A DNA stretch of 64,000 nt from NCBI GenBank assembly GCA_027486585.1, contig JAIXOU010000106.1:62001-126000 (forward strand), read 5' to 3'. Origin of the DNA: Verrucomicrobiaceae bacterium (lineage in GTDB: Bacteria; Verrucomicrobiota; Verrucomicrobiia; Verrucomicrobiales; Verrucomicrobiaceae). Shown here one piece after another: positions 42,879 to 55,987 of this stretch. The position numbers were made by a program, and so were the translations under genes. The notes below the pieces were generated by a model that saw only the letters and a program-made list of their open reading frames with translations, was not told where the DNA came from and did not search any database. Position 1 is the stretch's first letter. Each line of letters opens with the position of its first letter.

Positions 42879-43910
42879 TTAGTTACAAAGCACCTCTTTA
42901 ATTCCCGAACCCATCTCTTCCACGCCAAACTTCACGGGTAGGAATTGCTCTATGAGCGCCATGTTTGTACGGGTATGATCTGTGATGGACAGCGTGTGAA
43001 ACACACCGCCACCCGCTAGGACCATTGGCAGCAGTAACTGATCCGCCAAATAAGCGCCCACGGGTGCCGTCGAGGCAAGGTATCCGCGCAGGCCCTTCGC
43101 TGCACCCGTGGCCACAGCTTCAGCAGATTTACCGAGCTGAGCGATGCCGGTGCTGATTTCGCAAACGTTCGCAAACCGCGCTCCAAGCAGGATGGCATTA
43201 CCAGGGCCAGTGCTGTCGTTCGTGTAGCGGAGGTCGATGTGGTTTTCGGGCCATTCGAGGATCTTGGAGGCGGTCAAGATTTCACGTTTAGCGATCTCGC
43301 CAGGCAAATGCGCATGCAACACTCGGCCAAAAATCTCCACGGACTCGCCGCGTTCGATGAGCTTGAGCTTCTTCCACTTTTTGATCGGCGTGATGTGAGC
43401 CGCGAGCAACCCACCGCCAGCCTGCATGAAGCCGGGTCGCTCTAGGGTGACCGTGGCATCGACGCCCATGCTCCAGAGCACCGGCAAAAAACACTGCTCG
43501 ATGAATTCGAACGGCGGAGCCATCGGGTTGTGTGTGCCGCCTTCGATGCGCAACGTGCTGGAAGCTTCCGCCTGCAGCAGCGCGGGCAAAAGCGTCTGCA
43601 ACACGAGCGTCGTGCTGCCGCCGGAGCCGATGGCAAAGCGGTAGTCGCCCGCCGCGATCTTGCCGGGTGTGAAAACGAGTTCCGTGGAGCCCATTTCGGC
43701 TCCTTCGACCTCTGCGCCGCAGACTTCCGCCGCGGCTTTCACGCAGGTGAGGTGCTGACGCATCAGCCCGGGCTTCGGTCGCGTCCCACGGATGTTCGTC
43801 ATGCGAAACGCCCGCCCCGTGACCAGCGCCAGCGACAACGACGACCGCAGCAATTGCCCGCCGCCGGATTCGCCGGAGATGGAGAGGATGGAAGTGTTGG
43901 TTTTGATCAT
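42879..43910 (-). CDS. rtcA: RNA 3'-terminal phosphate cyclase
   Basis: Converts RNA 3'-phosphate ends to 2',3'-cyclic phosphates using ATP. The N-terminus ISGESGGGQLLRSSLSLALV is the family signature; FAIGSGGSTTLVLQTLLPAL near residue 92 is the second. The C-terminal THxRTNMA-like segment (DHTRTNMALIEQF) contains the histidine that is adenylylated in E. coli RtcA. Length 343 residues, typical. It is the last gene of the minus-strand rtc operon and ends four bases from the convergent fur-type gene, with no terminator visible between them. Confidence 0.93.
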   Translation of the reverse strand: MIKTNTSILSISGESGGGQLLRSSLSLALVTGRAFRMTNIRGTRPKPGLMRQHLTCVKAAAEVCGAEVEGAEMGSTELVFTPGKIAAGDYRFAIGSGGSTTLVLQTLLPALLQAEASSTLRIEGGTHNPMAPPFEFIEQCFLPVLWSMGVDATVTLERPGFMQAGGGLLAAHITPIKKWKKLKLIERGESVEIFGRVLHAHLPGEIAKREILTASKILEWPENHIDLRYTNDSTGPGNAILLGARFANVCEISTGIAQLGKSAEAVATGAAKGLRGYLASTAPVGAYLADQLLLPMVLAGGGVFHTLSITDHTRTNMALIEQFLPVKFGVEEMGSGIKEVLCN

Positions 43911-46699: not shown

Positions 46700-48301
46700 A
46701 TGGATTCAGCTAAACCCATCATCACTTTCGGTTTCCTCGGCTCTACTTTGGACCGCGCTCAGGGCGCGGAAAGGTGGTCGAAATGGCGGCCGACGGTGGC
46801 GATGTGTCAGCAGGAGGATTTGCTCGTTTCGCGGCTGGAACTGCTCGTGGAGCCGAAGTTTGCGGATCTGGCGAAAAGCGTGGTCGCGGACATCGCGAAG
46901 GTTTCGCCGGAGACGGAGGTGGTGGTGCATGACTTCGCGCTGAAGGACCCGTGGGACTTTCAGGAGGTGTATGAGCGGCTCTACGACTTTGTGCGCGGCT
47001 ATGACTTCCAGCCGGAGAAGGAGGATTACCTCATCCACCTGACCACCGGCACGCATGTGGCGCAGATTTGCTGGTTCCTGCTCAATGAAGCGAACTTCAT
47101 CCCGGCGCGGTTGCTGCAAACCTCGCCCTCACGCGAGGGCGGACGCGATGCGAAGGCCTCGGGGCGCTACGAGATCATCGACATCGATCTCTCGAAGTAT
47201 GACCGGCTCTCCACGGGCTTCGCGCAAGAGCAGGAGCGCACGTTGGATTTCCTGAAAAGCGGCATCGCCACCAAGAGCAAAGGCTTCAACAAGCTCATCG
47301 AGCAGATCGAACTCGTCGCCGTGAACTCCAGAGCGCCGATCCTCATCACGGGACCGACTGGCGCGGGCAAATCGATGCTCGCAGGCCGCATCTACGACCT
47401 GCGACGCTCGCGGGCGGGTTTGAGCGGTCGATTCGTCGAAGTGAACTGCGCCACGCTGCGCGGTGATCAGGCGATGTCGGCGCTGTTTGGCCACAAACGT
47501 GGCTCCTTCACCGGTGCGCAGTCGGACCGGCCGGGCCTGCTCAAAGAAGCCGATAAAGGCCTCATTTTCCTCGATGAGATCGGCGAACTAGGCCTCGACG
47601 AACAGGCGATGCTGCTGCGAGCACTGGAAGACAAAACCTTCCTGCCACTCGGCAGCGACAAGTCCGTGCAGAGCGACTTTCAGCTCATCGCCGGCACGAA
47701 TCGCGATCTGCGGGCCCAAGTCGCTGCGGGCAAATTCCGCGATGATTTGCTCGCCCGCATCAATCTCTGGACCTTCACGCTGCCCAGCCTCGCCGAGCGG
47801 CGCGAAGACATCGCCGCGAATCTTGATTTCGAGCTGGAGCGCTATGCAAAGTCGCATCGCCGCCAGGTGCGCATGAACAAGGAAGCACGTGAGGCTTTCC
47901 TCAAATTCGCCAAAGGCTCGGATGCCAAATGGAGTGCGAATTTCCGTGATCTTAATGCGGCGGTGACGCGCATGGCCACACTCGCACCGAAAGGACGGGT
48001 CACGGTTGAGTGTGTGGAGGCGGAGATGCTTCGACTGAAGGAGGTCTGGCGTGTTGTCGGACAGGAAGTGCTTGGTGATCAGTGTTTAGCATTAAGTCCT
48101 GAGCGACGGTCAGCGATTGACCCGTTTGATCTGGCCCAGTTAGACTTTGTTTTGAAAGCATGTCGCGAGAGTAAGACGCTCTCGGATGCTGGCAGGAAGC
48201 TCTTTGCGGTTTCAAGATCAAAGCGCTCCAAGATGAATGATGCGGATCGCCTGAAGAAGTATCTGGCGCGGTTTCAGCTGAAATGGGAAGATGTGAAATG
48301 A
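46700..48301 (+). CDS. rtcR: RtcR, sigma-54-dependent activator of the RNA-repair operon
   Basis: Bacterial enhancer-binding protein of 533 residues. The N-terminal RtcR/CARF-like domain (about 1-185) begins ITFGFLGSTLDRAQGAERWS and is thought to sense RNA ends or cyclic phosphate. The central AAA+ domain has Walker A GPTGAGKS, the sigma-54-contacting loop GSFTGA (Ser in place of the more usual Ala) and FLDEIGELGLDEQAMLLRAL. A short C-terminal helix-turn-helix-like segment ends the protein. It is divergent from the rtc operon with a 199-base gap. Confidence 0.93.
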   Translation: MDSAKPIITFGFLGSTLDRAQGAERWSKWRPTVAMCQQEDLLVSRLELLVEPKFADLAKSVVADIAKVSPETEVVVHDFALKDPWDFQEVYERLYDFVRGYDFQPEKEDYLIHLTTGTHVAQICWFLLNEANFIPARLLQTSPSREGGRDAKASGRYEIIDIDLSKYDRLSTGFAQEQERTLDFLKSGIATKSKGFNKLIEQIELVAVNSRAPILITGPTGAGKSMLAGRIYDLRRSRAGLSGRFVEVNCATLRGDQAMSALFGHKRGSFTGAQSDRPGLLKEADKGLIFLDEIGELGLDEQAMLLRALEDKTFLPLGSDKSVQSDFQLIAGTNRDLRAQVAAGKFRDDLLARINLWTFTLPSLAERREDIAANLDFELERYAKSHRRQVRMNKEAREAFLKFAKGSDAKWSANFRDLNAAVTRMATLAPKGRVTVECVEAEMLRLKEVWRVVGQEVLGDQCLALSPERRSAIDPFDLAQLDFVLKACRESKTLSDAGRKLFAVSRSKRSKMNDADRLKKYLARFQLKWEDVK

Positions 48302-49386: not shown

Positions 49387-50643
49387 TCAGTTCCCGCGAC
49401 CTTCGATGACATTTTTACCGACCGATAAGATGTCGATCAGCCATTGGCGCATGGCTTTAAAACCGCGCATCAGAGCACTGTCGATGACCTCCTGGCAGCC
49501 GTAGCGAGTGGCGATGCTTTCTTCGACTCGGCGATAGCGTGGCAGCAGAATCAGAGTGCTGCGCGGAGCTGACTCGGCGGTCTCGCGATGCGAGACGCTG
49601 GGATGCAGGAGGCCTTTACAAACAACCATGCCACCTTCCGCGACGGGAACGCTCCTTTGTGGAAGCAGCAACCATGGACGATAGACAAAAGATACGCCTC
49701 CTTCAGAAGAGCTTTTGAGTTTGCCAAACGTGCGAACGGGCACGCCACGAAAACGACGGGCTAGGAAACCCTTCACACCAGTCTCACGCACATCTTCAGC
49801 CGTGGCACGTTTATTGAGCAGGAAATCTCGACCCATCAGTGTGCCAAAGACGGTCAGACGGAAGGACCAGCCTGCGGCCAAAGCACCGATCAATATGAAG
49901 ACCAGCGACACAGCAGCGCCCAGATAAGGATTCAAGGCTGCGCTCAGCGTGATGATGGAGATCAGAGCCAGTTTTGATAACTTCAGGCCAGCGTCCACGA
50001 TACCAAAAGGAGAGAGAGCGATGAGCACATTTAATGCATGTGAACTGAGCCAAACGACACAAAAGGCGGCAATACCGACCGGAATGGTGATCCAAGGATT
50101 ATGCATGCTGTATTGAGCAAGGTCACCCAGAGGCATGAGAGCCAGTCCAGATCCGGCAAAACCAATGCAAGCCTGATCAGGCTGAATCTGCTGAAACTGA
50201 GAAACAGCTAGAGCTACGAGCGGCACAAACGCAGCACTGGCTACCAGAGCGCTAAGTTTGTCCTCGAAGAGCTCCAAGAAATCGAGCGGCTTCTTGACTA
50301 AAGCAGGGGCAGCAGCTCCCAGGAAGTCTTTGAGAAAGCAAAGGCTCAATAAAGATAGACCTGCGCCCCAGGCATAGGGATGACAATACCAAGGCAATTT
50401 AGAGCGCATTTTTTCTTCGGTATGAAAATATTTCCACGCGCCGATGGTGCTGACGCCCAAAAGCGGACTGACTGCGACGCCAGTGATTTCCGAAATTCCC
50501 TCCGCAAGACTAGTGCCAGGCAAAAGCAGGTCTTGACGCAGTTTTTCGGCCAAGGGGTTAGCGGCACCCTCCGCTAAAATCGGCGTCACAGAAGCGAATA
50601 AAACATTGAAAATGAGTATAATGAGGGTTTTTTTCATGATCAT
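49387..50643 (-). CDS. Polytopic membrane protein of unknown function, divergent from the tubulin operon
   Basis: 418 residues from ATG 50643, with a signal-peptide-like N-terminus (KKTLIILIFNVLFASVTPIL) and about six to seven further hydrophobic segments, for example PYAWGAGLSLLSLCFLKDFL. After residue 285 a soluble cytoplasmic C-terminal domain follows, containing GVSFVYRPWLLLPQRSVPVA and STLILLPRYRRVEESIATRY. I do not recognise the family. A GGGAG at about 13 bases upstream is compatible with this start. It shares the 343-base divergent control region with btubA. Confidence 0.75.
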   Translation of the reverse strand: MIMKKTLIILIFNVLFASVTPILAEGAANPLAEKLRQDLLLPGTSLAEGISEITGVAVSPLLGVSTIGAWKYFHTEEKMRSKLPWYCHPYAWGAGLSLLSLCFLKDFLGAAAPALVKKPLDFLELFEDKLSALVASAAFVPLVALAVSQFQQIQPDQACIGFAGSGLALMPLGDLAQYSMHNPWITIPVGIAAFCVVWLSSHALNVLIALSPFGIVDAGLKLSKLALISIITLSAALNPYLGAAVSLVFILIGALAAGWSFRLTVFGTLMGRDFLLNKRATAEDVRETGVKGFLARRFRGVPVRTFGKLKSSSEGGVSFVYRPWLLLPQRSVPVAEGGMVVCKGLLHPSVSHRETAESAPRSTLILLPRYRRVEESIATRYGCQEVIDSALMRGFKAMRQWLIDILSVGKNVIEGRGN

Positions 50644-50986
50644 AAATGGAAGTCTCCCTGAATCACGAAGAGACTGCACTGAACTCTCCGAACTGGACAA
50701 TGATACTGGTTTCCCACCTGCCACTTACATTTTTTACAGAAGAGTGTAGCTTTAAGCTCAGAGCAGACGAATGGTGGGTTAACACATTTTGGTTGAATTA
50801 GGGCAGCGAAGCGAGATATATTTAGATTCTCTATAATAATCACAGCTTAATCTGCCCTGCGCTGAACAATTGGAGCCCTTTTTTTAAAGCACGACTGACA
50901 AACAAATTAATTTATCCGAAACGGGAACAATTCTTGCGGATTTTCTCATTTGTAATAGAACACACCAAGAAACTCATATTCTTCTG
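50644..50986. other. Divergent intergenic region upstream of btubA
   Basis: This 343-base AT-rich gap separates the divergent membrane-protein gene from btubA and must carry the promoters of both. I see no strong sigma-70 pair. TTGCGG (50934-50939) with TAGAAC 16 bases on is the best plus-strand candidate and is weak; an isolated TATAAT is at 50832-50837. A poly-T stretch near 50880-50886 is notable. The btubA start has no Shine-Dalgarno in the preceding 20 bases. Confidence 0.3.
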
Positions 50987-52420
50987 ATGAAGGTAAATAA
51001 CACAATTGTCATTTCGGTCGGTCAAGCCGGCAACCAGATCGCGGCCTCATTCTGGAAAACAGTCTGTCAGGAGCATGGGATCGACCCGCTCTCTGGCTCC
51101 ACAGTATCCGGTGCCGTTCCGCGTGGTAACTGGAGTTCCTTTTTCACGAAACTGGGAGAATCAGGTTCTGGAAGTTATGTGCCGCGTGCTGTCATGGTCG
51201 ATCTAGAGCCAAGCGTCATTGAAAACGTGAAGGCCAATTCAGGCTCACTCTTTAATCCTGCCAATCTCATCTCCCGCAATGAAGGTGCTGGCGGTAACTT
51301 TGCAGTCGGTTACATGGGAGCGGGTCGTGAGGTTCTGCCAGAAGTCATGGGTCGCATTGATGGCGAGATCGACAAGTGTGACAACGTTGGTGGCATCATT
51401 ATCATCCATGCCACAGGTGGTGGTTCCGGCTCTGGTTTGGGTGCACTCTTGATCGAGACGTTGAAGGAAAAGTATCCAGAATATCCAGTGCTTAGCTGTG
51501 CTGTGCTGCCATCGCCGCAAGTTTCTTCCGTGGTCACCGAGCCCTACAACACGGTCTTTGTTCTCAATACACTGCGCCGCTCTGCAGATGCTTGCCTGAT
51601 CTTTGACAATGAGGCGCTCTTTGAATTAGCCCATCGCAAATGGAACATCGATAATCCGACGGTCGATGACTTGAATCTGCTCATCACGGAAGCTCTGGCT
51701 GGCATCACTGCTTCCATGCGCTTCAGCGGTTTCCTCACCGTGGAAATCAGCCTGCGTGAACTTCTCACCAATCTGGTGCCGCAGCCTTCCCTGCACTTCT
51801 TGATGTGCGCGTTTGCTCCGCTGACACCACCAGATCGCAGTAAGTTTGAAGAAATGGGCATTGAGGAGATGATCAAGTCCTTGTTCGACAATGGCTCAGT
51901 CTTTGCTGCTTGCTCGCCAATGGAAGGCCGCTTCCTCAGCACGGCAGTTCTTTATCGCGGTATCATGGATGACAAGCCGCTGGCTGATGCAGCGCTGGCT
52001 TCCATGCGTGAGAAGCTACCATTAACTTATTGGATTCCGACAGCCTTCAAAATTGGTTATGTCGAACAGTCCGGTATGTCCCACCGCAAGAGCATGGTAC
52101 TGCTCGCCAACAATACAGAGATCGCTCGTGTGCTGGATAGGATCTGTCACAACTTTGACAAACTCTGGCAGCGCAAGGCTTTCGCCAACTGGTATCTGAA
52201 TGAAGGAATGTCGGAGGAACAGATCATCAATCTACGCGCCTCTGCTCAAGAATTGATTCAGAGTTATCAAGTGGCTGAGGAAAGCGGAGCCAAGGCCCGC
52301 ACTCAAGATGCCGGTTTGGCCGGTGCTGTGGCAAAGGCGGCAGCAGCACCTGTCAGCGCGGAAGAAGAGCGGTCCGCATCAGCCTCTGTCAGCTTGCGCG
52401 ATCTCGTTGATCGCCGCTAA
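50987..52420 (+). CDS. btubA: Bacterial tubulin BtubA
   Basis: GTP-binding protein that co-polymerises with BtubB into mini-microtubules in Prosthecobacter, and is closer to eukaryotic tubulin than to FtsZ. GQAGNQIAASFWKTVCQEHG at 12-31 is the tubulin T1 region. The tubulin signature is GGGSGSG at 144-150 (Ser where the canonical form has Thr). VVTEPYNTVFVLNTL and SLRELLTNLVPQPSLHFLM follow, the T7 loop carrying an acidic residue. Relative to BtubB, T7 is two residues longer. Length 477 with an Ala-rich C-terminal tail. It starts at ATG 50987 and btubB follows 56 bases after its stop. Confidence 0.97.
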   Translation: MKVNNTIVISVGQAGNQIAASFWKTVCQEHGIDPLSGSTVSGAVPRGNWSSFFTKLGESGSGSYVPRAVMVDLEPSVIENVKANSGSLFNPANLISRNEGAGGNFAVGYMGAGREVLPEVMGRIDGEIDKCDNVGGIIIIHATGGGSGSGLGALLIETLKEKYPEYPVLSCAVLPSPQVSSVVTEPYNTVFVLNTLRRSADACLIFDNEALFELAHRKWNIDNPTVDDLNLLITEALAGITASMRFSGFLTVEISLRELLTNLVPQPSLHFLMCAFAPLTPPDRSKFEEMGIEEMIKSLFDNGSVFAACSPMEGRFLSTAVLYRGIMDDKPLADAALASMREKLPLTYWIPTAFKIGYVEQSGMSHRKSMVLLANNTEIARVLDRICHNFDKLWQRKAFANWYLNEGMSEEQIINLRASAQELIQSYQVAEESGAKARTQDAGLAGAVAKAAAAPVSAEEERSASASVSLRDLVDRR

Positions 52421-52464
52421 GTCTAGAGCCCATTTCAAGACACTAAATACAGACCAAGAACACC

Positions 52465-52470
52465 GGAGGA
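52465..52470 (+). promoter_or_regulatory. Strong Shine-Dalgarno for btubB
   Basis: GGAGGA lies six bases before the GTG start at 52477 and fixes that start. It is the only near-consensus Shine-Dalgarno in the operon; btubA, bklc and the fourth gene lack one. Confidence 0.85.
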
Positions 52471-52476
52471 TACACT

Positions 52477-53757
52477 GTGAGAGAGATTCTTAGCATTCAC
52501 GTCGGCCAATGTGGCAACCAAATCGCAGACCGCTTCTGGCGTCTGATTTTGAGCGAGCACGGCCTCAATGAACAAGGCATGCCCAAAGAAGGCAGTAACG
52601 CCTCCACGAACACCAACATGGAGGTCTTCTTCAATAAGATCCGTGATGGGAAGTTTGTTCCCCGCGCCGTCTTGGTCGATCTTGAACCTGGCGTTATCGC
52701 CCGTATCGAAGGTGGAGACATGTCTCAGCTTTTCGATGAAAGCTGCATTGTCCGTAAAATCCCAGGTGCCGCTAATAACTGGGCCCGTGGCTACAATGTG
52801 GAAGGTGAGCGCGTGATCGATCAGATCATGAACGTCATCGACAGCGCTGTGGAAAAGACCAAGGGCTTGCAGGGTTTCCTGCTCACTCACTCCATCGGTG
52901 GCGGTTCAGGCTCAGGTCTGGGTTCATTGATTCTTGAGCGTCTCCGTCAGGCTTACCCAAAAAAGAAGATCTTTACCTTCTCAGTGGCTCCATCCCCGCT
53001 GGTTTCTGATTCTGCTGTAGAGCCTTATAATGCGATTCTGACACTTCAGCGTATCCTTGAAAATGCAGATGCCGCGGTGCTTCTGGATAACGAGGCTCTC
53101 TTCCGTATTGCCAAAGCCAAGCTGAATCGCAGCCCCAACTATATGGATCTCAATCACATCATCGCACTCATCATGAGCTCGGTGACGGCTTCCCTGCGTT
53201 TCCCTGGCAAGCTGAATACAGATTTGAATGAGTTTGTCACCAATCTGGTGCCATTCCCAGGCAATCACTTCTTTACTGCGAGCTTTGCGCCGATGCGCGC
53301 TCTGGGTCAGGAAGGTCAGGTCCGCACCACTTTCCCAGACTTGGCTCGTGAGACCTTTGCTCAGGATAACTTCACGGCTGCTATCGATTGGCAGCAGGGT
53401 GTCTATCTGGCTGCAAGTGCCTTGTTCCGTGGTGATGTGAAGCAGAAGGAAATTGATGAAAACATGGCGACCATTCGCCAATCGTTAAACTACGCCAGCT
53501 ACATGCCGAAGAATGGTGGCCTGAAGATTGGTGCTGCCGAAACAGCCCCTGAGGGCTTTGCTTCCAGCGGTCTAGCCTTGGTGAATCACACGGGTATCGC
53601 CGCAGTTTTCGAGCGCTTGATTGCGCAGTTCGACATCATGTTTGACAACCATGCTTATACCCATTGGTATGAGGCCGCTGGAGTCTCCCGTGACATGATG
53701 GCTCAAGCACGCAACAGCATTGCCAATCTTGCCCAATCGTATCGAGACGCCAGCTAA
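52477..53757 (+). CDS. btubB: Bacterial tubulin BtubB
   Basis: Partner of BtubA in the heterodimeric bacterial tubulin, 426 residues. GQCGNQIADRFWRLILSEHG from residue 10 is the T1 region, GGGSGSGLGSLILERL from 141 the T4 signature, and KLNTDLNEFVTNLVPFPGNH the T7 loop with the N-x-D-x2-E-type residues that activate GTP hydrolysis. There is no acidic C-terminal tail. The GTG start is placed by GGAGGA at 52465-52470. bklc follows 31 bases after the stop, as in known Prosthecobacter operons. Confidence 0.97.
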   Translation: MREILSIHVGQCGNQIADRFWRLILSEHGLNEQGMPKEGSNASTNTNMEVFFNKIRDGKFVPRAVLVDLEPGVIARIEGGDMSQLFDESCIVRKIPGAANNWARGYNVEGERVIDQIMNVIDSAVEKTKGLQGFLLTHSIGGGSGSGLGSLILERLRQAYPKKKIFTFSVAPSPLVSDSAVEPYNAILTLQRILENADAAVLLDNEALFRIAKAKLNRSPNYMDLNHIIALIMSSVTASLRFPGKLNTDLNEFVTNLVPFPGNHFFTASFAPMRALGQEGQVRTTFPDLARETFAQDNFTAAIDWQQGVYLAASALFRGDVKQKEIDENMATIRQSLNYASYMPKNGGLKIGAAETAPEGFASSGLALVNHTGIAAVFERLIAQFDIMFDNHAYTHWYEAAGVSRDMMAQARNSIANLAQSYRDAS

Positions 53758-53788
53758 AGGCGCTCTCCTCGCCTGACCCAACCCAGTT

Positions 53789-54559
53789 GTGGATGCCAAC
53801 CTAGAACGCCAAATTTCATCCGCCTCGCGTAGTGTCGAGGAGGCGAGGAGACTTGCGTACCATGATGCATCCCGGCTTGGGGCGTTAGTCGAACAGATCA
53901 GTGTTTTAGCTGATTTACGTCAAAAAGATGGAGATTTCCGCAAAGCGGAGTCTCTCTACCGTGAATCCCTGTACCGTGCGGAAGAGCTAAAAAAGCCGGA
54001 TCCTGATCTGATTTGTGGGATCCTATCATTGATTGCTCATTTGTATGATCGCTGGGGTCGGATGGATCAGGCGGCAGAGTATTATCAGAAAGCTTTGAAA
54101 ATCGCAGACCAAGGCAACTTTCAAAACAGTGATAAAGTGGCCACGATCAAAAATAATCTGGCCATGATCTTCAAGCAGCTAAGGGACTTTAAAAAGGCCG
54201 AGCAATATTATGAAGAAGCACTGGCTAGCTTCCAACTCAGTGATGGAGAGCAAAGTGCACGGGTGGCTAGCGTTCTCAATAACCTTGGGGTCCTTCATTA
54301 CACGAATATGGATGTGGAGCGTGCTCAGCAGACGCATGAACGCGCCTTGGGCATTCGTCAAAACCTGTCTGATGATCAGATGGACCCTTCTGATTTATCA
54401 CAGACCTACATCAATCTCGGTGCCGTTTATAAAGCAACGGGAGACTTTCAAAAAGCTGAGGCCTGCGTCGAGCGGGCTAAGAAACTGCGTGCTGGCGTCA
54501 ATGGTTATCACCCAGCGCCGCGTCGTGCCGCTTCTCTTTTAATCGACAAGACTTTATGA
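53789..54559 (+). CDS. bklc: Bacterial kinesin light chain-like TPR protein (Bklc/BtubC)
   Basis: TPR protein reported to bind and stabilise BtubAB mini-microtubules. Of the 256 residues, about 28-240 form five tetratricopeptide repeats, for example DGDFRKAESLYRESLYRAEE, GRMDQAAEYYQKALKIADQG and LRDFKKAEQYYEEALASFQL, with the KLC-style spacing. An N-terminal helical segment precedes them. The start is GTG 53789, with no good Shine-Dalgarno. The gene overlaps the next one by four bases (ATGA). Confidence 0.94.
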   Translation: MDANLERQISSASRSVEEARRLAYHDASRLGALVEQISVLADLRQKDGDFRKAESLYRESLYRAEELKKPDPDLICGILSLIAHLYDRWGRMDQAAEYYQKALKIADQGNFQNSDKVATIKNNLAMIFKQLRDFKKAEQYYEEALASFQLSDGEQSARVASVLNNLGVLHYTNMDVERAQQTHERALGIRQNLSDDQMDPSDLSQTYINLGAVYKATGDFQKAEACVERAKKLRAGVNGYHPAPRRAASLLIDKTL

Positions 54560-54819
54560 CGAATGAAGACTTACTGACTCTGAAGGTTTTACTGAGTCGG
54601 CGCCTTGAACTGATTGCTGATCACAGGTTTCGCGACATGGACCGCAGCGGTCATCTCGCCGCACTTCAGCAGGTATCCGAGCTGATTCAAGATGAGCACT
54701 TACGCTTAAAGCCCTCATTACCGCCGCGCTTGAACCATTTTCTGCAGCAGGCCAGTTTTTCAAAGGCGCTGGATTACCTGTCTGAAAATCAGCCGAGTAG
54801 CTACGGAAGCGAGGATTGA
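54556..54819 (+). CDS. Hypothetical protein, fourth gene of the tubulin operon
   Basis: 87 residues, family not recognised. It is hydrophilic and predicted mainly helical, with LKVLLSRRLELIADHRFRDM near the start, then SELIQDEHLRLKPSLPPRLN and a helical C-terminus (FLQQASFSKALDYLSENQPS). No transmembrane helix or signal. The ATG overlaps the bklc stop codon, which strongly suggests translational coupling to Bklc and thus a role with the tubulin cytoskeleton, but no function can be assigned. It ends 30 bases before rex. Confidence 0.75.
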   Translation: MTNEDLLTLKVLLSRRLELIADHRFRDMDRSGHLAALQQVSELIQDEHLRLKPSLPPRLNHFLQQASFSKALDYLSENQPSSYGSED

Positions 54820-54828
54820 CAAAAGAAA

Positions 54829-54854
54829 TTCACAGGTGAATTTTCACAAGTGAA
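54829..54854 (+). promoter_or_regulatory. Candidate Rex operator: tandem GTGAA/TTCAC palindromes at the rex start
   Basis: Two near-identical palindromes lie in tandem: TTCACAGGTGAA at 54829-54840 and TTCACAAGTGAA at 54843-54854. The inner half-sites also form GTGAA-TT-TTCAC. The second palindrome covers the GTG start codon. The half-site TTCACAA is that of known Rex boxes (TTGTGAA-N4-TTCACAA), but here the spacer is two bases rather than four, so the match is partial. TTGACA at 54816-54821 could be a -35 element. Autoregulation of rex is the likely purpose. Confidence 0.6.
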
Positions 54855-55464
54855 CCGCATAGACATCCCCAGGAAGTCAATCTATCGACTTTCAATTTAT
54901 CAGCGTTGCCTGAGCCGACTGCGTGAAAATGACGTCGATACCGTTTCTTCGGAGGCCTTAGCCAAGGCTGCTGGTGTCAAATCTACGCAGCTACGAAAAG
55001 ACCTGACATACTTTGGACAATTCGGCACTCGCGGTCTTGGCTACAATGTGGATGCCCTAGCGAAAACGATCTCAGAAGTGTTGGGCCAGAACCATCTGCA
55101 GCCAGTCATTCTGATTGGGGTCGGAAATTTGGGCTCCGCTCTTTTGCGCTACGGAGGTTTCCGCAAAGAAGGTTTCGACGTGGTCGCCGCTTTTGACATC
55201 GCCCCAAAACCGCAAACGGGGTTAGCCATTCCCATTTTAGCGATGGCGACAATGCCTGAATTCATTTTAGAAAACCAAGTTAAAATGGCCATCCTCACCG
55301 TGCCCGCCAATAGTGCGCAAGGCGTCACCAATCAGATCGTCAATGCTGGCATTCAGGCCATTCTAAATTTCTCACCCTGCGTACTCGACGTTCCTGATCA
55401 GGTGGTTGTAAACAGTGTGGATCTTGCCGTCGAACTGGAAAATCTCAGCTACTTCATCCGTTAA
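54850..55464 (+). CDS. rex: Redox-sensing transcriptional repressor Rex
   Basis: NADH/NAD+-sensing repressor of 204 residues. The N-terminal winged helix (RLSIYQRCLSRLRENDVDTV, then KSTQLRKDLTYFGQFGTRGL) is followed by a Rossmann domain with ILIGVGNLGSALLRYGGFRK. The C-terminal helix, including VDLAVELENLSYFIR, is typical of Rex. The start is GTG 54850, with no Shine-Dalgarno because the operator-like palindromes occupy that region. It lies 30 bases after the tubulin operon and on the same strand, so read-through could link them. Confidence 0.95.
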   Translation: MNRIDIPRKSIYRLSIYQRCLSRLRENDVDTVSSEALAKAAGVKSTQLRKDLTYFGQFGTRGLGYNVDALAKTISEVLGQNHLQPVILIGVGNLGSALLRYGGFRKEGFDVVAAFDIAPKPQTGLAIPILAMATMPEFILENQVKMAILTVPANSAQGVTNQIVNAGIQAILNFSPCVLDVPDQVVVNSVDLAVELENLSYFIR

Positions 55465-55468
55465 AGCC

Positions 55469-55987
55469 GTGACTTGGATCGAATGTGATATTGACCAGCT
55501 AGAGGCGATCCGTGCCATCTTCAATGAGGCAATCGAAACATCGACGGCGCTTTACGATTATCAGCCGCGCAGTCAGAAGACCATGCAGGCCTGGTGGGCC
55601 GCGAAAAAAGCTGGAGGCTATCCGGTAATCGGTGTTCTAGGTGACACTGGTGATCTCATGGGCTTCGCCAGCTATGGACCCTTCCGCGCCTTTCCTGCCT
55701 ACAAATACACTGTCGAGCATTCTGTTTACGTGGATAGACATTACCGTGGCCGCGGACTAGGTCGGCAACTTCTGGAGCGCGCCATTTTAAGCGCAGAATC
55801 ACAAGGCTACCATGCCATGATCGGCGTGATCGATGCTGAGAATCAGGCCAGCATTGCACTGCATGAAAATCTGGGCTTTCAGCGCTGTGGTGAAATGCGT
55901 GAGGTCGGCTTCAAGTTTGGCCGCTGGCTAAATCTGGTGATTTACCAGAAGCTCCTGAATGGCCCAGTAGCCCCCGTGGATGGCTAA
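55469..55987 (+). CDS. GNAT N-acetyltransferase, phosphinothricin acetyltransferase-like
   Basis: Acetyl-CoA-dependent N-acetyltransferase of 172 residues. The acetyl-CoA site is VDRHYRGRGLGRQLLERAIL, and the C-terminal block IGVIDAENQASIALHENLGF with FQRCGEMREVGFKFGRW matches the phosphinothricin/MddA-type (PAT) subgroup. I start at GTG 55469, five bases after the rex stop; the longer frame from 55415 overlaps rex and is rejected. It probably acts on a small amine or amino acid analogue. It converges with the next gene with three bases between stops. Confidence 0.88.
   Translation: MTWIECDIDQLEAIRAIFNEAIETSTALYDYQPRSQKTMQAWWAAKKAGGYPVIGVLGDTGDLMGFASYGPFRAFPAYKYTVEHSVYVDRHYRGRGLGRQLLERAILSAESQGYHAMIGVIDAENQASIALHENLGFQRCGEMREVGFKFGRWLNLVIYQKLLNGPVAPVDG

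Follow-up and report, generated by a model that had tools for sequence, protein, structure and literature searches.

Is a small gene at the tail of a bacterial tubulin operon a part of the tubulin machine, or a gene with a job of its own that has come to sit there? The question is raised by a 64,000-nucleotide stretch of DNA from a Verrucomicrobiaceae bacterium (GCA_027486585.1, contig JAIXOU010000106.1, positions 62,001 to 126,000; the window), in which the tubulin genes btubA and btubB and the kinesin light chain gene bklc are followed by a fourth gene, open reading frame 4 (ORF4), that overlaps bklc. The answer that we consider probable is that the known btub operon, inherited mainly vertically, has captured in ORF4 an older gene of the order whose job is independent of Btub. 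The genes concerned are given below, with start codons taken from sequence reading alone; genomes and loci of relatives are cited by G and L handles.

50987..52420, plus strand: btubA, bacterial tubulin A; 477 amino acids (aa), ATG start, PF00091 and PF03953, GGGSGSG loop
52477..53757, plus strand: btubB, bacterial tubulin B; 426 aa, GTG start, PF00091 and PF03953, GGGSGSG loop
53789..54559, plus strand: bklc, bacterial kinesin light chain; 256 aa, GTG start, tetratricopeptide repeats (TPR; TPR_12, E 3.8e-33)
54556..54559, plus strand: ATGA overlap of the ORF4 start codon and the bklc stop codon, seen in the sequence
54556..54819, plus strand: ORF4; 87 codons (87 aa), predicted all-helical, family-wide and not btub-specific

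The operon core

Judged by its sequence, the core of the window is the known BtubAB-Bklc mini-microtubule operon with all three genes intact. The order is btubA-btubB-bklc, with short intergenic gaps of 56 and 31 bases, and each product matches a PDB entry over its full length. BtubA matches 2bto across residues 1-477 (E 3.5e-280), BtubB matches 7quq_B across 1-426 (E 9e-261) and 2btq_B likewise across 1-426, and Bklc matches 5o01 across 1-256 (E 8.4e-127). By Pfam both tubulins have the GTPase domain and the tubulin C-terminal domain. Their best matches are BtubA and BtubB structures, while the NCBIfam ftsZ model is matched weakly, at 14.9 and 24.2 bits (cut-off 295.2). An earlier sequence-only reading of this stretch had called the operon complete and described a further gene joined to bklc by an ATGA overlap; both statements hold, and the gene at the overlap is conserved across the family (67 of 68 genomes).

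In relatives, according to the available parts of PMC5372463 and PMC3232192, a BtubA-BtubB heterodimer builds a mini microtubule of four or five protofilaments, to which the TPR protein Bklc binds and which Bklc can tether to the membrane. The proteins of the window would be expected to do likewise, forming the heterodimer and the mini microtubule with Bklc bound. The Prosthecobacter operon has the same three genes, in the same order and with full-length proteins (2bto, 7quq, 5o01, 5o09); the window differs in its fourth, overlapping gene, which goes unmentioned in those parts of the two papers. The search for promoters and terminators found 5 and 5, against shuffled-sequence means of 4.5 and 5.3, i.e., chance level, and an Rfam scan of the window gave nothing at the gathering threshold.

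ORF4 as a conserved gene of the order

Searches with ORF4 in Pfam (E up to 1), NCBIfam and PHROGs gave nothing, and the PDB gave by sequence a single chance-level match (E 0.92), a result that would fit a spurious frame at the end of bklc. Conservation at loci without bklc refutes this explanation, to which we give as good as no probability. Homologues (E <= 1e-11) are present in 67 of the 68 genomes of the window's family, the only miss being G022, which is 81% complete. BtubB is matched in 43 of these genomes, from 7 of 11 genera; btub is scored as present in 42, since the 43rd, G042, holds only a broken btubB remnant. All 26 genomes left without intact btub carry ORF4. Beyond the family the searches were made in samples of the order (239 genomes) and the phylum (387 genomes). 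The ORF4 profile is matched in 169 genomes of the first and 80 of the second, 26 of the latter at E < 1e-15 and the others weakly, mostly in the C-terminal part only. The family is about 80 residues long, with residues invariant across 25 sequences, and the ratio of nonsynonymous to synonymous change (dN/dS) is far below 1. For the window's ORF4 it is 0.086 against its nearest relative, in G040, and 0.014 against the copy in the btub-less G015; the latter value is rough, with synonymous sites near saturation (0.61).

A structure predicted from 5 sequences has a mean predicted local distance difference test score (pLDDT) of 88.6 and helices at residues 3-21, 23-28, 30-54, 57-64 and 68-77; the model made without relatives is poor (mean pLDDT 71.0). 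A known fold for ORF4 was sought with Foldseek and rejected, with 0 PDB matches at E <= 0.001 and a best match, to an ESCRT-I headpiece, at E 1.5. The window's ORF4 is by its sequence a member of this unnamed family of about 80 aa, found in Verrucomicrobiales and often near dnaA. It differs from the family elsewhere in place, lying after bklc and before a rex-like gene and not near dnaA. A distant ORF4-like match was also seen in another member of the order (L312:1046-1683, minus strand), beside a gene that we take to encode an SUI1-type translation factor.

Position of ORF4: dnaA or bklc

Of the 20 family genomes that fall outside the window's genus, 18 have ORF4 beside dnaA and dnaN, oriented away from dnaA. 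Within the genus none of the 46 loci, which come from 45 genomes and some of which are cut by contig ends, has dnaA next to ORF4. For other families, 13 loci were picked by hand from the profile hits and not at random; dnaA is on the same 7-8 kb stretch as ORF4 in 8 of them. Directly behind bklc, ORF4 is found in 11 of the 42 btub genomes, all from one clade of 19 genomes; it is away from bklc in 30, and no ORF4 was found in the remaining one, G022. The overlap with bklc is 4 bases (NTGA) in 10 of the 11 linked genomes, and in G037 it is 4 bases with a GTG start or 1 base with an ATG start. Among btub genomes the linkage needs at fewest 2 changes, e.g., one gain and one loss.

The history that we favour begins with ORF4 as a separate, older gene of the order, often sitting near dnaA. 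A move in the direction that we infer, within one clade of the window's genus, would have brought it to just behind bklc, its start overlapping the bklc stop. There it would share the btub transcript and would probably be translated from it by coupling, and it would have been kept at the btub tail in part of that clade. That its job does not depend on Btub is supported by its distribution, and its place near dnaA hints at a housekeeping task connected with the initiation of replication or with the cell cycle. As an older gene, widely kept and often near dnaA, ORF4 probably does not belong to the tubulin machine as a dedicated component.

The alternative is that in this clade the mini-microtubule system has in ORF4 a genuine fourth component, for example a small helical factor that acts on Bklc or on the filament ends and is made in step with Bklc through translational coupling. 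The overlap with bklc in 11 genomes, in at least 10 of them by 4 bases, speaks for it, and so does the holding together of the four-gene block while its flanks differ. A Btub-specific component might be expected to disappear with btub; ORF4 is instead retained in 26/26 family genomes without intact btub, and on that count a Btub-specific ORF4 was rejected. Three genomes (G019, G030 and G032) have kept both btub and ORF4, apart from each other, as is ORF4 from bklc in most btub genomes. In G015, the one case where decay after btub loss could be looked for, ORF4 is intact and 94% identical to that of the window, and what is left of bklc next to it (56 residues) has fallen to 62% identity and runs into a stop; the date of the loss is not fixed. 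We therefore think a fourth component unlikely. The sequence-only reading had also suggested that ORF4 might enlarge the functional unit; the gene and its overlap are real, and the enlargement is what its presence without btub and away from bklc argues against.

Several observations weigh against an ORF4 independent of Btub and a vertical operon. Outside the family, dnaA is within the 1.5 kb flanks of ORF4 in 0 of 23 loci. The link with bklc has been kept in the 11 genomes despite several different flanks. The window's ORF4 is 63-74% identical to the unlinked ORF4s of G016, G019, G029, G030, G032 and G058 and only 52-62% identical to linked ones outside its own small group, so that more than one attachment is possible; repeated attachment would favour a functional tie. 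The G015 dN/dS value also covers time before the undated loss of btub in that genome. Finally, the two trees described in the next section put the window's small clade in different places. The capture of an independent gene remains the reading that we regard as probable.

Inheritance and loss of btub

A tree of BtubA, BtubB and Bklc was compared with a species tree built from rpoB and rpoC only. The species tree has 58 genomes (60 of the 68 had an rpoB match; G001 and G022, both small pieces, were left out), the Btub tree has 44 rows, 36 of them in common with the species tree, and both are quick trees made with no bootstrap. Over the 36 common genomes 20 of 33 splits agree, where 500 shuffles of the labels give at most 2, and 13 splits differ in each tree. 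Presence of btub on the species tree requires at least 11 changes. Because the trees agree to this extent and presence changes so often, inheritance within the family looks mainly vertical with repeated loss.

Traces of loss are seen in two genomes. G015, a close relative, has no tubulins, and its bklc remnant (L069:1257-1424; also L097) lies as a scar between an aldo-keto reductase gene and ORF4-rex. In G042 (L195) a btubB fragment with two stop codons stands near a full-length bklc. As a separate observation, among genomes of the window's genus that are at least 93% complete, 5 of 8 without btub measure 4.0-4.7 Mb and the 23 with btub 5.4-7.7 Mb; genome reduction may accompany the loss of btub.

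The operon has also been thought of as mobile. Differing insertion sites in three Prosthecobacter species were once taken as horizontal transfer, as stated in the part of PMC3232192 available to us, and the flanks of the operon do vary between genomes; it could then be a horizontally acquired cassette inserted upstream of a resident ORF4-rex operon. The largely congruent Btub and rpoBC trees stand against such a cassette and weaken the argument from insertion sites within the family. So do the gene just upstream of btubA (c4, treated below), which is common to 24 genomes, and ORF4, which keeps its place at bklc while the flanks change. A plasmid search gave no match for BtubB or for the third tubulin described below, and plasmid carriage of btub was rejected on that result. 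A mobile cassette is in our view very improbable. That btub entered the phylum from outside is possible, and is a question separate from its inheritance within the family.

Where btub occurs

Outside the family, three genomes of the order sample (G100, G177 and G203, all from one other family) carry Btub-like genes; the weak match (27%) in G092, of a further family, is a fused tubulin-like protein. The phylum sample gave 5 matching genomes of 387, every one in the window's family. In the named genome collection 34 loci match BtubA, Brevifollis gellanilyticus (L015) among them. The operon had been read as identifying the organism as Prosthecobacter. Since it is spread over 7 of 11 family genera, Brevifollis gellanilyticus included, and Btub-like genes are also present in the three genomes of another family, the operon alone does not name a genus. 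The accessible portion of a 2023 paper (PMC9871819) gives Btub for Prosthecobacter only, and that of a 2026 paper (PMC13394414) gives further Btub sequences from Verrucomicrobia and an Asgard origin.

Two single cases may be added. G014 has two btub operons (L137 and L188), one with ORF4 and the other, more diverged (84% BtubB identity), without it. A BtubA-BtubB fusion of 912 residues in G203 was rejected as an artefact; a run of N at L314:9149-9248 joins both frames.

A kinase-like protein as candidate partner

The gene c4 encodes a protein cluster of median length 825 with one membrane-spanning stretch by eye. It matches Pfam Pkinase at E 7.5e-7, but its 29.2 bits are under the cut-off of 31.7. 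In 24 genomes c4 immediately precedes btubA, on the same strand, with a gap of 26-292 bases in 22 and of 786 and 999 bases in two. Four btub loci are cut upstream by contig ends (G001, G022, G038 and G050), and a c4 piece lies beside btubA in the last three. The gene is not upstream of btubA in the window's clade; the orthologue of the window's genome is on another contig (G000:C134:156649-159039, 52% identity).

Strong c4 orthologues, defined by E <= 1e-150 with second-copy matches at 42-45% identity excluded, occur in 40 of the 42 btub genomes (not in G019 and G001) and in 5 of the 26 without intact btub (G015, G016, G029, G042 and G054). G038 was scored present from the fragment beside btub at a contig end (39/42 without it), and matches at 35-37% in G064, G065 and G067 (E 1e-85 to 1e-91) were scored absent. 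In 11 independent pairs of genomes differing in btub, c4 differs the same way in 7.3, the opposite way in 0.3 and not at all in 3.4 (averages), with a median p of 0.016 (range 0.008-0.07). The association is weaker in the tree clade where c4 and btub are unlinked (12/13 vs 3/6, p 0.07), so part of it can be joint deletion of neighbours. On these co-occurrence data the kinase-like c4 is a likelier Btub partner than ORF4.

A third tubulin and a larger unit

Upstream of c4 the relatives in the order show further genes. In G177 one contig carries, in this order, a helix-turn-helix (HTH) gene of XRE type, a third tubulin, a c4-like gene and btubA, and then ends; btubB and bklc are on a second contig. 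G100 has the same order but lacks btubA, and its c4-like gene is broken and its btubB incomplete. G203 has btubA, btubB and bklc; the HTH, third-tubulin and c4-like genes are absent upstream on the stretch seen. The third tubulin is 33-35% identical to BtubA, which is also its closest PDB match, and it matches the tubulin GTPase domain of Pfam and not the tubulin C-terminal domain. A search for it found none in the window's family. Six genomes of a further family, f4 (G077, G083, G086, G092, G101 and G104), have a related long and divergent tubulin-like protein, and no btubAB or further tubulin was found in them.

L316:3473-4951, minus strand: third tubulin; HTH gene at L316:4764-5648, minus strand
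L317:10535-11806, minus strand: third tubulin; HTH gene at L317:11812-12546, minus strand
L318:8793-10727, plus strand: f4 long protein, N-terminus matching the HTH protein (BLAST)
L329:7622-9556, minus strand: f4 long protein, N-terminus matching the HTH protein (BLAST)
L332:6149-7933, plus strand: f4 long protein, N-terminus matching the HTH protein (BLAST)
L330:1756-3534, minus strand: f4 long protein, no HTH seen
L331:6887-8656, minus strand: f4 long protein, no HTH seen
L333:3-1097, plus strand: f4 long protein cut by a contig end (the other five are complete)

Among the f4 proteins only L318 is above a Pfam cut-off for HTH. Of the five complete ones, three (L330, L331 and L332) have a GTP loop with clearly degenerate glycines.

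A more tentative scheme, which we think possible though doubtful, would make the three-gene btub operon the trimmed remnant of a larger unit of XRE-HTH gene, third tubulin, membrane kinase-like gene, btubA, btubB and bklc. In such a unit the third tubulin would act as a regulator sensing the state of the tubulin, and the kinase-like protein would stay a partner of Btub even where the genes are unlinked, as they are in the window's genome. ORF4, ancestrally near dnaA, would have taken the operon tail and might tie filament expression to the cell cycle.

Flanking genes in the window

The neighbours of the four-gene block are as follows.

54850..55464, plus strand: rex-like redox repressor, PF06971 and PF02629, 30 bases past ORF4
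55466..55987, plus strand: GNAT acetyltransferase after rex, PF00583, open frame from 55415
49387..50724, minus strand: divergent neighbour upstream of btubA, no Pfam family, similar gene in L015 (50%) and L028 (55%)

The rex and GNAT genes are also downstream of ORF4 in G040, G015 and G037, and a gene like the divergent neighbour is also upstream of btubA in G019 and G032 (L163 and L165). Farther upstream in the window, positions 46700-48301 (plus strand) encode a sigma-54 regulator of the RtcR type, which controls RNA repair (Pfam RtcR, E 3.6e-79), and the gene at 42879-43910 (minus strand) may be rtcA.

Known systems and what the locus means

Among known systems outside the phylum, the Asgard proteins AtubA and AtubB were grouped with Btub in the 2026 paper, whose available part mentions neither bklc nor ORF4 in this archaeal system (PMC13394414). 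They are the best PDB matches of the window's tubulins after Btub itself (AtubA with BtubA, E 3e-118; AtubB with BtubB, E 1.1e-119), ahead of eukaryotic tubulins.

Pilhofer 2007, going by its title, reportedly characterises the btub operons. Among the titles and abstract starts covered, which include neither that paper nor Deng 2017, no fourth btub gene, kinase-like partner or HTH-tubulin was found for Verrucomicrobia, and the novelty of the btub flanks is not proven.

The cellular role of bacterial microtubules is, to our knowledge, still open. At this locus the tempting guess of a fourth microtubule gene gives way to a testable history, in which ORF4 was probably captured from near dnaA. Mainly vertical descent within the family would weaken the argument for transfer from differing insertion sites. 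The likelier partner of Btub is the kinase-like membrane protein, which gene order alone would miss in the window's genome. Its co-occurrence with btub, together with a third tubulin that adjoins a DNA-binding domain or is fused to one, would offer direct handles on what bacterial microtubules do.

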